A stretch of DNA of 64,000 bases from an uncultured Faecalibacterium sp. (GTDB taxonomy: Bacteria; Bacillota; Clostridia; Oscillospirales; Ruminococcaceae): assembly GCA_934524985.1 (NCBI GenBank), contig CAKSYT010000010.1, positions 10,454 through 74,453 on the forward strand, given 5' to 3'. Position 1 is the first letter of the stretch. Every line of letters starts with the position of its first letter. Below, piece after piece: positions 49,830 through 54,168 of the stretch. The notes below the pieces were generated by a model. The model was not told the DNA's origin. It saw only the letters and a program-made list of their open reading frames with translations, and made no database searches. The position numbers were made by a program, and so were the translations under genes.

Positions 49830-50582
49830 TTACCCGGGGTACCGGCTTACCTCCAGCAGCTCTTCTGCCCGCTTTACCTGCTCTGCGGTGGGCGGCACAG
49901 CGTCCGGCAGGGGATAGGGGATGCCCAGCTTCTGCCACTTGAACAGCCCCAAGGTGTGGTAGGGCAGCACCTCCACCCGCTGCACCGTTTTCAGGCTGCG
50001 GATGAAGTCTGCCGTTTTGCGCAGCCCCTCCTCGTCGTCGGTCAGACCGGGCACAAGGACATGCCGCACCCACAGCGGGATGCCGAGGTCAGAGATGTGC
50101 CGCGCCATGGCAAGGATGTTGGCGTTGTCCTTGCCGGTGAGCTGCCGGTGGCGCTCCGGGTCGATCTCCTTGAGGTCAAGGATCACCAGACTGGTGTTAG
50201 CCATCAGGCGGTCGAACGCCGCCAGATACGCCGGGTCGTCCGGGCGGAAAGGCTGCCCGGCGGTGTCCAGCGCCGTGTGCACGCCCTTGGCGCGCGCCAG
50301 CGTGAAGAACTCGGTCAGAAAGTCCATCTGCCGCAGCGGCTCGCCGCCGCTGACCGTGATGCCGCCCTTTTTGCCCCAATAGTTGCGGTAGCGGTATACC
50401 CGCTGGAACAGCGCTTCCGCCGTCCACTCCTCGCCGCCCTCTGCCCATGTTTCGGGGTTGTGGCAGTACTTGCACCGCAGGGCACACCCCTGCAAAAACA
50501 CCACAAAGCGCACGCCGGGGCCGTCCACCGAGCCGAAGGATTCCAGCGAGTGGACGTACCCGAGGGTCTTACAGGACGCCAT
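49830..50582 (-). CDS. pflA: Pyruvate formate-lyase activating enzyme
   Basis: 250 residues. Radical SAM motif CxxxCxxC is C33, C37, C40 (GCALRCKYC), followed by [13 protein letters not shown] and [11 protein letters not shown]. The start overlaps the end of pflB by 14 bp, so translation is coupled. Family knowledge: it uses SAM and a [4Fe-4S] cluster to make the glycyl radical in PflB under anaerobic conditions. It needs Fe-S assembly, supplied by nifSU. Confidence 0.96.
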
Positions 50583-52821
50583 GGCAGGTACGGGCCAGCA
50601 CGTCCAGCTGCTGCTCGCGGGTCAGGTCGATGAACTTGACGGCGTAGCCGGAAACGCGGATGGTAAAGTTGGCGTACTCTTCCTTCTCGGGGTGCTCCAT
50701 GGCGTCCAGCAGCTTCTCCTTGCCAAAGACGTTCACGTTCAGGTGGTGTGCGCCCTGATCGAAGTAGCCGTCCAGCACCTGCACCAGATTCTCCACGCGT
50801 TCGCCCTCGCTGTGACCCAGTGCCTCGGGGTTGATGGTCTGGGTGTTGGAAATGCCGTCCAGTGCCCAGTGGTAGGGCAGCTTTGCTACGGAGTTCAGGG
50901 AGGCCAGCAGGCCGTTCTGCTCTGCGCCGTAGCTGGGGGTAGCGCCGGGTGCAAAGGGGGTAAAGGCGGCGCGGCCGTCCGGCAGAGCGCCGGTGTACTT
51001 GCCGTACACCACGTTGGAGGTGATGGTCAGGATGGAGGTGGTAGCCTCGGAGTTGCGGTAGGTGTGGCGCTTCTTGATCATCTCCAGGAAGGTCTTGAGC
51101 AGCCACACGCCGATCTCGTCGGCGCGGTCGTCATCGTTGCCGTACTTGGGGAAGTCGCCCTCGGTCTCAAAGCCGGTGGCAAGGCCGTTTTCATCGCGCA
51201 CCACCTTCACCTTGGCGTACTTGATGGCGCTCAGGGAGTCGATGACGTGGGAGAAGCCTGCAATGCCGGTGGCAAAGGTGCGGCGCACATCGGTGTCGAT
51301 GAGTGCCATCTCGGCTTCCTCGTAGTAATACTTGTCGTGCATATACTGGATGAGGTTCAGCACGTTGACATACAGCCCGGCCAGCCAGTCCAGCATCTGC
51401 ACATACTTGGGCAGCACCTCGTCATAGGTCAGGTACTCGCTGGTGATGGGGGCGTAGTTGGGGCCGCACTGCTCGTGGCTCTTCTCGTCCACGCCGCCGT
51501 TGATGGCGTACAGCAGGCACTTGGCAAGGTTGGCGCGTGCGCCGAAGAACTGCATCTCCTTGCCGGTCTGGGTGGCAGACACGCAGCAGCAGATGGAGTA
51601 ATCATCGCCCCAGACGGGCTTCATCACATCGTCGTTCTCGTACTGGACGCTGCTGGTGTTGACGGACACCTTGGCGGCGTACTTCTTAAAGGCCTCCGGC
51701 AGAGCAGAGGAGTACAGCACGGTCAGGTTGGGCTCCGGTGCGGGGCCCATGTTCTCCAGCGTGTGCAGGAAGCGGTAGCAGTTCTTGGTGACCATGCTGC
51801 GGCCGTCCATGCCGATGCCGCCCACTTCCAGCGTTGCCCACACGGGGTCGCCGGAGAACAGCTGGTTGTAGCTGGGGATGCGGGCAAACTTGACCATGCG
51901 GAACTTCATGACCATGTGGTCGATGAGCTCCTGTGCCTGACTTTCGGTCAGGATGCCCTTGTCCAGATCGCGCTGGATATAAATGTCAAGGAAGGTGGAG
52001 ATGCGGCCCACGCTCATGGCAGCGCCGTTCTGGGTCTTGATGGCGGCCAGATAGCCGAAGTACAGCCACTGGCAGGCCTCCTTGGCGTCCTTTGCGGGCT
52101 GGGAGATGTCGTAGCCGTAGGCCTCGGCCATCTTCTTCATGCCCTTCAGGGCGCTGATCTGGCGGGCGATCTCCTCGCGCAGGCGGATGACGTCATCGGT
52201 CATGGTGCCGTCGCCGCAGTTGGCAAGATCCTCCTGCTTGAACTGGATCAGGGCATCGATGCCGTACAGGGCAACGCGGCGGTAGTCGCCCACGATGCGG
52301 CCGCGGCCGTAGGTGTCCGGCAGACCGGTGATGATGTGGGTGTGGCGTGCCTTCTTCATCTCGGGGGTGTAGGCATCGAACACAGCCTGATTGTGGGTGC
52401 GGGTGTAGTCGGTAAAGATCTTGTGCAGCTCGGCAGAGGGCTGGTAGCCGTAGGTGGTGCAGGCCTGCTCTGCCATCTTGATGCCGCCGTAGGGCATAAA
52501 GGCGCGCTTGAGGGGCTTGTCGGTCTGCAAGCCCACGATCTGCTCCAGATCCTTCAGGCTTTCGTCAATATAGCCGGGGCCGTAGGAGGTCAGGCTGCTG
52601 ACCACCTCGGTCTCCATATCCAGCACGCCGCCCTTGGCGCGCTCGGCCTTCTGCAGCTGCTGCAAAGCACCCCAAAGCTTATCGGTAGCCTCGGTGGGGC
52701 CTGCCAGAAAGCTTTCGTCGCCGTCATAGGGGGTGTAGTTCTTCTGGATGAAGTCACGCACGTTGACCTCTTCCTTCCAGATGCGGCCTTCAAAGCCTTC
52801 CCACTGTTCAAACTGGATCAT
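50569..52821 (-). CDS. pflB: Pyruvate formate-lyase
   Basis: 750 residues, standard length, from ATG 52821 behind AAGGAGG. Catalytic cysteines lie in the triplet C411-C413 ([12 protein letters not shown]). The glycyl-radical site is G725 in [10 protein letters not shown]. Family knowledge: converts pyruvate and CoA to acetyl-CoA and formate. It forms an operon with pflA. The leader of about 170 nt contains a GTTAG-type palindrome (52847-52862), and the promoter lies at 52997-53025, divergent from the small RNA promoter at 53141. Confidence 0.97.
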
Positions 52822-52846
52822 TGGAACCTCCTTGCTCCATTACGCG

Positions 52847-52862
52847 GTTAGCGTTTTCTAAC
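52847..52862. promoter_or_regulatory. GTTAG palindrome in the pflB leader
   Basis: GTTAGCGTTTTCTAAC, third member of the set with 16562-16577 and 53185-53200. It lies 26 bp before the pflB start codon and well downstream of the predicted -10, so a bound protein would act as a roadblock, or a second promoter sits here. Confidence 0.6.
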
Positions 52863-52990
52863 TAATGAGCCTTTGAAAAACCGCTCTTCATGGGCGGCTT
52901 TCTGGGGGCGAAACAGTCTTGCGCTGCCGGCTGCGGCAGCCCTGACTACAAGGTGTAGACAAAAATAAAAACCTGTCCACAAAATCTTGC

Positions 52991-53140: not shown

Positions 53141-53169
53141 TTGACAAGACTAACTGACTGTGGTATCCT
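53141..53169 (+). promoter_or_regulatory. Strong promoter of the pflB-divergent RNA
   Basis: TTGACA (53141-53146), 17-bp spacer, TATCCT (53164-53169). Confidence 0.85.
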
Positions 53170-53175
53170 GTTCTC

Positions 53176-53402
53176 GCAGCGATGGTTAGCTAATTCTAAC
53201 CACGTTGCACCAGAAAAAAAGGAGCGTCTGCAAGCGCTCCGCTCCATTCCTCCATTCCTTTCTCTTTTCTACGGGAAGCGGCAGCACGGTTTGCTCTGCT
53301 GCTTCCGGCGCGGCACCGGCTGTGTTTGGTACCACAGCCGACGCAAAGAAAACAAAAACGGGACACTCAGCTTGACCACCTGAGTGCCCCGATTTTTGTT
53401 TT
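53176..53402 (+). ncRNA. Candidate regulatory small RNA divergent from pflB
   Basis: About 225 nt between a near-consensus promoter and an intrinsic terminator, with no ribosome site/start codon pair. Four hairpins: 53221-53226/53235-53240; 53274-53286/53297-53306; a perfect 8-bp stem 53317-53324/53333-53340; and the terminator 53359-53391. A C/U-rich unpaired linker (53241-53270) contains two copies of CTCCATTCC and can pair with Shine-Dalgarno sequences, as in Fur-controlled FsrA or RoxS of Bacillus. CTCCATT also matches AATGGAG just before the pflB ribosome site. A palindromic operator (53185-53200) covers the start of the transcript. RNA status is inferred; family unknown. Confidence 0.6.
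53184..53201. promoter_or_regulatory. GTTAG palindrome at the small RNA start
   Basis: GGTTAGCTAATTCTAACC, roughly +9 to +26 from the predicted start. One base differs from the palindrome in the HMA promoter (minus strand of 16562-16577). Half-sites TTAG/CTAA recall DtxR-family sites but the 6-bp gap is not the classical IdeR spacing. Confidence 0.65.
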
Positions 53403-53403
53403 G
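53359..53403 (+). terminator. Small RNA terminator
   Basis: CGGGACACTCAG (53359-53370) pairs with CTGAGTGCCCCG (53380-53391) with one mismatch, then ATTTTTGTTTTG. Confidence 0.85.
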
Positions 53404-53709: not shown

Positions 53710-54168
53710 TTACTTTCCCAGCGCTGCCAGCTGCTGGTACAGCTCTGCTGCGCCGCCGCCGGGGTATTTTACGCTGACATAGGCGCTGTTCAGGATGCAT
53801 ACGCCGTCGGAGTACACCGTCAGCAGAAACTTATGGTTCTCGGCATCGTCATAAAAGCTGACGGTGACCGACTGCACCGGGAAGGTATCGTGGGTGTAGG
53901 CAGAATAGTTCTGGTTCAGCTTTTTGCGGCAGGAGACGGTGGAAAGCAATTCTGCCGTCTGCTGGAACTCTTCGCTGTCCATGGAGAGGAGGTGATAGTC
54001 CATGTCGTTTGTGCTGCCAAAATGCGCCACTTCCTCGGTGCGGAGCGTGCCCTGCGAGCTGGCGCGTACCAGTGCTTTCAGGTCGATGGGGCGGTATAGC
54101 ACCGCAAAAGCTGCCAGTGCAAACAGGATAAAAAATAAAGCGGTGCGGGGAATGTGGAAGCTTTTCAT
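53710..54168 (-). CDS. Hypothetical membrane-anchored protein
   Basis: 152 residues. One N-terminal hydrophobic helix (ALFFILFALAAFAVLY, about 10-25) without a lipobox, then a soluble extracytoplasmic domain with beta-strand patterning (FPVQSVTVSFYDDAENHKF, LLTVYSDGVCILNSAYVSVKY) and no catalytic motif I recognise. It follows the flippase-like gene by 4 bp and is probably translated with it, so it may be an accessory subunit of that protein. Confidence 0.72.
   Translation of the reverse strand: MKSFHIPRTALFFILFALAAFAVLYRPIDLKALVRASSQGTLRTEEVAHFGSTNDMDYHLLSMDSEEFQQTAELLSTVSCRKKLNQNYSAYTHDTFPVQSVTVSFYDDAENHKFLLTVYSDGVCILNSAYVSVKYPGGGAAELYQQLAALGK

Follow-up and report, generated by a model that had tools for sequence, protein, structure and literature searches.

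A conserved candidate small RNA gene divergent from pflB in Faecalibacterium carries an operator shared with iron genes

RoxS/RsaE, a Firmicute sRNA with C-rich seeds, acts on central metabolism under Rex/NO control, and a C-rich linker is also found in FsrA. According to the accessible part of PMC9410917, FsrA of Bacillus subtilis is a Fur-repressed iron-sparing sRNA that blocks iron-containing enzymes and works with FbpABC, and IsrR of Staphylococcus aureus is iron-repressed via Fur and acts on Shine-Dalgarno (SD) sites through C-rich single-stranded regions. In Mycobacterium tuberculosis, the accessible part of PMC8628891 describes MrsI as an iron-sparing sRNA having a box for IdeR, a DtxR-family repressor. 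The RNA described here, from Faecalibacterium, appears by analogy to be a new member of this functional class (RyhB, FsrA, IsrR, MrsI) and looks to work alike. With no Rfam match and another operator, it is assigned to none of those families, a reading that for IsrR, FsrA and RoxS comes from the search of the Rfam library. Rfam 15 gave no family match at the gathering score (the window yields four tRNAs only, and below threshold only chance-level matches were seen), so membership of a known Rfam family was rejected. A C-rich seed is shared with RoxS/RsaE, and an iron-sparing reading with FsrA of Bacillus subtilis; unlike both, the Faecalibacterium RNA is without a match in Rfam, and the FbpABC partnership is a feature of FsrA. 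It resembles IsrR, as far as the accessible text of PMC9410917 goes, in a conserved single-stranded C-rich region directed toward the SD, several stem-loops and a terminator, but IsrR has a Fur box where the present RNA has GTTAG-N6-CTAAC and matches nothing in Rfam at any curated threshold. With MrsI it would share the iron-sparing logic and the proposed DtxR-family-type control, whereas MrsI is about 100 nt long with a six-nucleotide seed (PMC8628891, accessible part). A literature search on Faecalibacterium with small RNA or iron returned only reviews and unrelated studies, judged by title and the start of the abstract, and searches on this RNA found nothing, with subscription papers and preprints mostly outside their coverage.

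The window, meaning the whole stretch of 64,000 nucleotides that was analysed, is of Faecalibacterium origin, as a 21-nt piece of the promoter/start region matches five contigs in the species-genome collection, all from this genus. On its plus strand, 53141-53402 holds a promoter, followed by a palindrome where transcription is expected to start, non-coding sequence that folds strongly, and a terminator (Table 1); this unit lies between pflB and a convergent gene (53710-54168) in which a Pfam scan found no domain. The near-consensus promoter described in the initial annotation was confirmed, with its 17-nt spacer kept in all 27 loci compared, which come from 26 genomes and the window and were chosen by the linker motif, and the RNA is presumably transcribed from it. 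The predicted fold of 53176-53403 consists of the operator hairpin, three more hairpins and the terminator; the linker, at about 53241-53271, stays open. The fold has an energy of -93.8 kcal/mol, while shuffled sequences average -64.94 +/- 4.46 (z = -6.47), and 0 of 200 shuffles were as stable. The four hairpins plus terminator that had been annotated are thus present in the fold of the window, but the four-hairpin form is local, because divergent species lack hairpin 4, and the first two hairpins are variable; the common core, on the sequences compared, is the operator, linker, hairpin 3 and terminator. The absence of a credible coding frame also stood. No ORF is common to 26 RNAs (L005 was left out of the 27 loci), those preceded by an SD-like sequence and of at least 12 aa varying in location and length, and a coding function was therefore rejected; L007 exceeds L006 by 94 nt in the linker region, which is not a multiple of three. 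The terminator scores on the reverse strand too and may also serve the convergent gene.

Table 1. Positions of the RNA gene, its parts and neighbouring features in the window
Feature	Position	Strand	Evidence and remarks
Sigma-70-type promoter	53141..53169	+	TTGACA 53141-53146, 17-nt spacer, TG-extended TATCCT 53164-53169; 10/12 consensus matches
Candidate small RNA	53176..53402	+	About 225 nt; 5' start placed from the promoter position
Hairpin 1 (operator hairpin)	53176..53208	+	Fold; outside the covariance model; differs among species
Operator GGTTAG-N6-CTAACC	53184..53201	.	Just 3' of the expected start; doubles as loop-end of hairpin 1
Hairpin 2, loop CUGCAA	53221..53240	+	Fold; replaced or lost in several divergent species
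Unpaired anti-SD linker, conserved CCUCCAUUC	53241..53271	+	Open in fold
Hairpin 3, loop GGUUUGC	53272..53308	+	Covariation; GGTTTGC or AGTTTGC in 27/27 loci
Hairpin 4, loop with GGUAC	53313..53344	+	Covariation; present in part of the genus only
Intrinsic terminator, loop CUUGACCACC	53349..53402	+	Fold; 96.0% of cells paired; 13/21 pairs changed on both sides
Second operator copy	52846..52863	.	25 nt 5' of the pflB start codon; 25/27 loci
pflB	50569..52821	-	TIGR01255, 1125 bits; divergent from the RNA
pflA-like radical SAM gene	49830..50582	-	PF04055, PF13353; after pflB; name pflA presumed from position and recall

Covariance searching of Faecalibacterium genomes, suggested in the initial annotation, found the RNA in 25 of 31 with a model built on its 3' part (26 as tallied, 25 after dropping G025, whose weak matches of 26.7 bits or less we score as no RNA), and inspection added G024, where a diverged copy at the pflB locus was missed by the model, giving 26 of 31. 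By DNA search 16 of the 31 had a match, that of G005 being a promoter-like piece elsewhere. The RNA was not found in G019, G020, G021, G025 and G027, three of which are 79-89% complete; PFL is also not above the cut-off in G019, G020 and G027, and only a distant one occurs in G021 (63%) and G025 (54%). In the window and 16 genomes pflB is divergent from the RNA, and 8 more have the pflB-side box at the usual distance, while neither pflB nor this box was seen beside the RNA in G011 and G006. In the alignment of 23 RNAs to the model, the paired share of cells is 91.3%, a figure favoured by the fitting of the alignment to the model, and column shuffling brings it down to 77.7%; none of 500 shuffles matched the real pairing level, and on sliding the partners by 1-3 columns only 39-51% remained paired. 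Both sides change in 27 of the 39 pairs. At most pairs of hairpin 4, 8-9 of the 23 rows are gapped. Among relatives the 3' hairpins and the terminator are thus kept through compensatory changes; hairpins 1 and 2 vary. The loop GACCA is found in 23 of 27 loci within the searched range of 100-260 nt 3' of the linker, so that L241 is counted as a miss though it has the loop. Alignment A1 contained 13 of 16 RNAs (L007, L009 and L010 omitted for insertions), A3 contained 11 (near copies L001, L002, L004 and L007 and the A2-misaligned L016 also omitted), and A5 had 23 rows from 24 sources searched (L283 below the cut; L266, L284 and L290 outside the input). A separate observation is a hairpin-rich repeat of about 80-95 nt inserted just 5' of the linker, in one copy in G029 and G031 and two in G028; such insertions are seen in L007, L009 and L010 (about 1650-1780 and on), with linker, later hairpins and terminator intact, and L006 (G012) has none. 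The distant PFL gene of G021 has on its 5' side (L292, about 2400-2560) a sequence resembling a promoter, then a GTTAGN6CTAAC box and a short hairpin carrying a run of T, perhaps a diverged counterpart of the RNA in tandem orientation.

Outside the genus, a covariance search of 297 genomes, run with stricter filters prone to losing weak matches, gave 21 matches, of which 4 were Faecalibacterium and the 17 others scored 36.2 bits or less. The exact linker is absent from all 17 loci (in L243 and L246 a copy with one mismatch lies at a distance, far from the match), and in the six inspected the match runs via a terminator-like hairpin. On these grounds the outside candidates were rejected, and no convincing relative was found among 293 genomes of the family that belong to other genera.

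The palindrome that had been proposed as an operator (GGTTAGCTAATTCTAACC in the window) is borne out across the genus. GTTAGN6CTAAC at the RNA is exact in 26 of 27 loci (L010 has one mismatch), 18-21 nt after the -10 begins, and 8 genomes each contain the pattern 10-14 times but its reverse only 0-3 times; from these sequences the palindrome is a genome-wide operator, and a regulator recognizing it very probably controls the RNA. By our own ORF calls, which cover part of the sites, and Pfam, a box lies 89 nt 5' of a flavodoxin gene, and in four genomes one lies 62-140 nt before DUF3793, followed by two ORFs read as FeoA and then feoB. Other boxes are 46-48 nt from a gene for a Tp47-like exported protein, 20 and 61 nt from two methyltransferase genes and 76 nt from an HMA-domain protein gene; also linked to boxes are an exported protein with GLUG repeats, a protein of 278 aa that matches nothing in Pfam, and a protein resembling alpha/beta hydrolases whose score falls just below the cut-off. 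It may be noted that a DUF3793 gene heads the boxed feo operon (L043:3205-3792), that a box lies about 80 nt past the end of a ferritin gene in L044 (~3085) and L074 (~3034), and that several genes near the operators of L042, L046, L063, L067 and L068 encode small methyltransferases and exported proteins with no assigned role (Tp47-like, GLUG repeats, the 278-aa protein); these possibly belong to an unrecognised iron-uptake system. The box pattern is present in 69 of 80 family genomes (G001 and 79 from other genera), many well above the reversed control and some not. A FeoB motif lies within 1.5 kb of a box in 5 of the 24 other-genera loci scanned (from the 29 of L294-L322), and a flavodoxin motif in one. 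The genes feoB and flavodoxin are typical of iron starvation. As the operator precedes feo operons and flavodoxin, iron is likely to be the signal, which bears out the metal half of the initial proposal; its redox half found no support in the present analysis.

The best repressor candidate is plausibly a DtxR/MntR-like protein encoded after feoB. A PF01325 gene lies 3' of feoB (at about 290 nt in G015) and scores 26.1-28.6 bits in four genomes against a cut-off of 26; the 151-aa ORF of G015 gives 25.4 bits, under the cut-off and tied with MarR_2, and in this one scanned protein no metal-binding/dimerisation Pfam domain was found at E 0.001. The operator half-sites are reminiscent of the DtxR/IdeR consensus at a different spacing and differ from the Rex box.

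The linker reads CCTCCATTC in 25 of 27 loci and CCCCCATTC in L282 and L290, counts that describe its form and not its independent presence since the loci were chosen by the linker. Its CCUCC is an anti-SD word, and the anti-SD character claimed earlier is retained, resembling the C-rich regions of IsrR in the accessible account of that RNA. The claimed repeat is narrower: a second copy of CTCCATTCC is confined to the window and its nearest relatives, and one copy is kept in the remaining genomes. It is fairly probable, judging by the conserved linker, that the RNA acts by pairing with SD regions. For targets, 896 called genes with their leaders from 60 evenly spaced 20-kb stretches of G003 were compared, using a home-made gene caller and simple motifs for Fe-S classes. 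The longest contiguous linker match, 11 nt, is to the leader of pyruvate:ferredoxin oxidoreductase (PFOR), and among 2000 linkers shuffled at all positions but CCTCC only 11 reach this length on it. By duplex energy this leader ranks 64th of 896, and in a cruder energy test of 182 leaders in G015 26 background genes were at least as good. The latter used a crude gene caller on 20 hand-placed stretches, none overlapping the AATGGAGG sites listed for G015, for which reason a count of 0 of 249 from these stretches is biased and was set aside. AATGGAGGAAGA lies 5' of PFOR in 24 of 25 genomes read (a partial match in G010 left out; L197 has CATGGAGG), with quite different upstream DNA in some species. 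Yet the PFOR leader is kept in G020, G021 and G027, which have no detectable RNA, and because G021 and G027 do so besides G020 we hold PFOR as a target, and a joint switch with pflB, to be slightly less probable; PFOR may tentatively be put forward as the best single candidate.

The wider prediction that the RNA represses Fe-S enzymes in general was not upheld, as the 16 genes with Fe-S motifs are not enriched among linker matches in the 896 leaders (p = 0.64, 0.51 and 0.21 at 7, 8 and 9 nt). Six genes match over at least 10 nt against a mean of 3.4 for shuffled linkers, 9 of 60 shuffles being as high. At 9 nt or more there are thirteen genes of 896; rubrerythrin, with a 9-nt match, was the sole typical iron protein among the nine sent to Pfam, so that with PFOR two of the ten examined are of this kind. 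The desulfoferrodoxin leader (forward-strand genes only) has a 9-nt match in the window's branch, where it carries AATGGAGGA in 5 of 8 and GATGGAGGA in 3 of 8, and no such match in the divergent species read, and the ferritin leader has an 8-nt match, ATGGAGGA, in the two genomes seen. A broader iron-sparing role is plausible by analogy. The pattern AATGGAGGN{3,12}ATG occurs 26-45 times per genome against 3-13 reversed in 6 genomes (33 against 9 in G017), mainly because GGAGG is the SD. The sets from G015 and G017 (33 and 24 proteins) share four pairs, read as ABC permease, ribosomal L19, EF-P and ClpB, with no iron protein, so leaders of non-iron genes are common to both branches as well, which counts against PFOR; the PFOR of G017 is outside its 24-protein set and is included in the leader comparison. 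Kissing of the loop CUGCAA with UUUGC, or of UGGUU with GACCA, is an idea only, and several of the divergent species have lost the CUGCAA hairpin.

Other explanations of the locus differ in what they ask of the RNA. That there is no separate RNA at all, the stretch being an untranslated leader, a gene for a small peptide or the convergent gene's tail, could draw on the terminator signal of the reverse strand; however, all 27 loci show a promoter and operator belonging to the unit itself, its terminator precedes any long same-strand gene in the window, its stems covary and its copies share no ORF. We consider this reading most improbable, and the separate conserved RNA gene almost certainly real. 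The RNA could instead use this box to respond to manganese, zinc or a redox signal, with an MntR-like or FUR-family repressor. The feo-linked protein is short and weakly resembles MntR/SloR, each of four genomes examined carries two FUR-family genes, and some boxes precede genes without a clear iron role, but feoB and flavodoxin typify iron starvation and the box is near FeoB in other genera as well, which leaves a signal other than iron unlikely.

If the loops GGUUUGC and GACCA served to bind a protein or to act as a sponge, with the linker merely an opening, their conservation (27 of 27 and 23 of 27 loci) and the weak target statistics of the linker would be accounted for; that the linker is the longest conserved unpaired stretch and holds the anti-SD word argues against this, and we regard it as quite unlikely. 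The initial annotation had singled out pflB, pointing to the complementarity of CTCCATT to AATGGAG 5' of its ribosome site, and an iron-box sRNA with pflB as main target would fit the AATGGAG and AAGGAGG of the window's pflB leader. The complementarity is real in the window. But AATGGAG is present in only 9 of 17 pflB leaders (9 of 14 in the window's branch and 0 of 3 further ones), whereas GAGCAAGGAGG is kept in all 14 of that branch and pflB has its own operator in 25 of 27 loci. As a conserved target pflB was therefore rejected, and that it is a target at all, main or otherwise, seems very unlikely to us. With its own operator more widely kept than the pairing, pflB would more probably be switched on along with the RNA than be repressed by it and, on this comparison, is probably co-regulated; the simplest reading suggested is one regulon with two divergent arms, the RNA and pflB. 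The direction of pflB regulation, which would be upward at low iron, is our reading, and the accessible part of PMC6311696 reports that some pfl genes of C. difficile decrease at low iron.

From sequence we have a conserved structured RNA with a promoter, an operator common to iron genes, no common ORF and a conserved anti-SD linker; its transcription, iron as the signal, the identity of the repressor, the pairing and every target are what we infer from it. The reading that we favour, with some confidence, is a trans-acting sRNA of the Faecalibacterium iron-starvation regulon. When iron is present, a metal-loaded repressor, probably the DtxR/MntR-like protein, would occupy GTTAG-N6-CTAAC at the start and keep the RNA off. 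When iron is short, the RNA would be made alongside the feo operon, flavodoxin and pflB, and its unpaired CCUCCAUUCC linker would pair with the SD region of selected mRNAs and block their translation. The best candidate target, PFOR, is an Fe-S enzyme for which PFL could substitute, much as flavodoxin does for ferredoxin, and the RNA would probably help the cell to save iron under scarcity. A joint iron switch, in which pflB and the sRNA are both released by a single DtxR-like repressor and PFOR is then shut off by the sRNA, is a reading that we think rather doubtful. If it were true, a radical enzyme would take over pyruvate breakdown from an Fe-S enzyme, and the formate, hydrogen and perhaps butyrate output of a major gut commensal would follow iron. 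The box offers a motif for tracing the iron regulon across many genera of the family. Faecalibacterium is one of the most abundant human gut bacteria, and a conserved iron-box sRNA beside pflB would tie gut iron to fermentation in a concrete and testable way.
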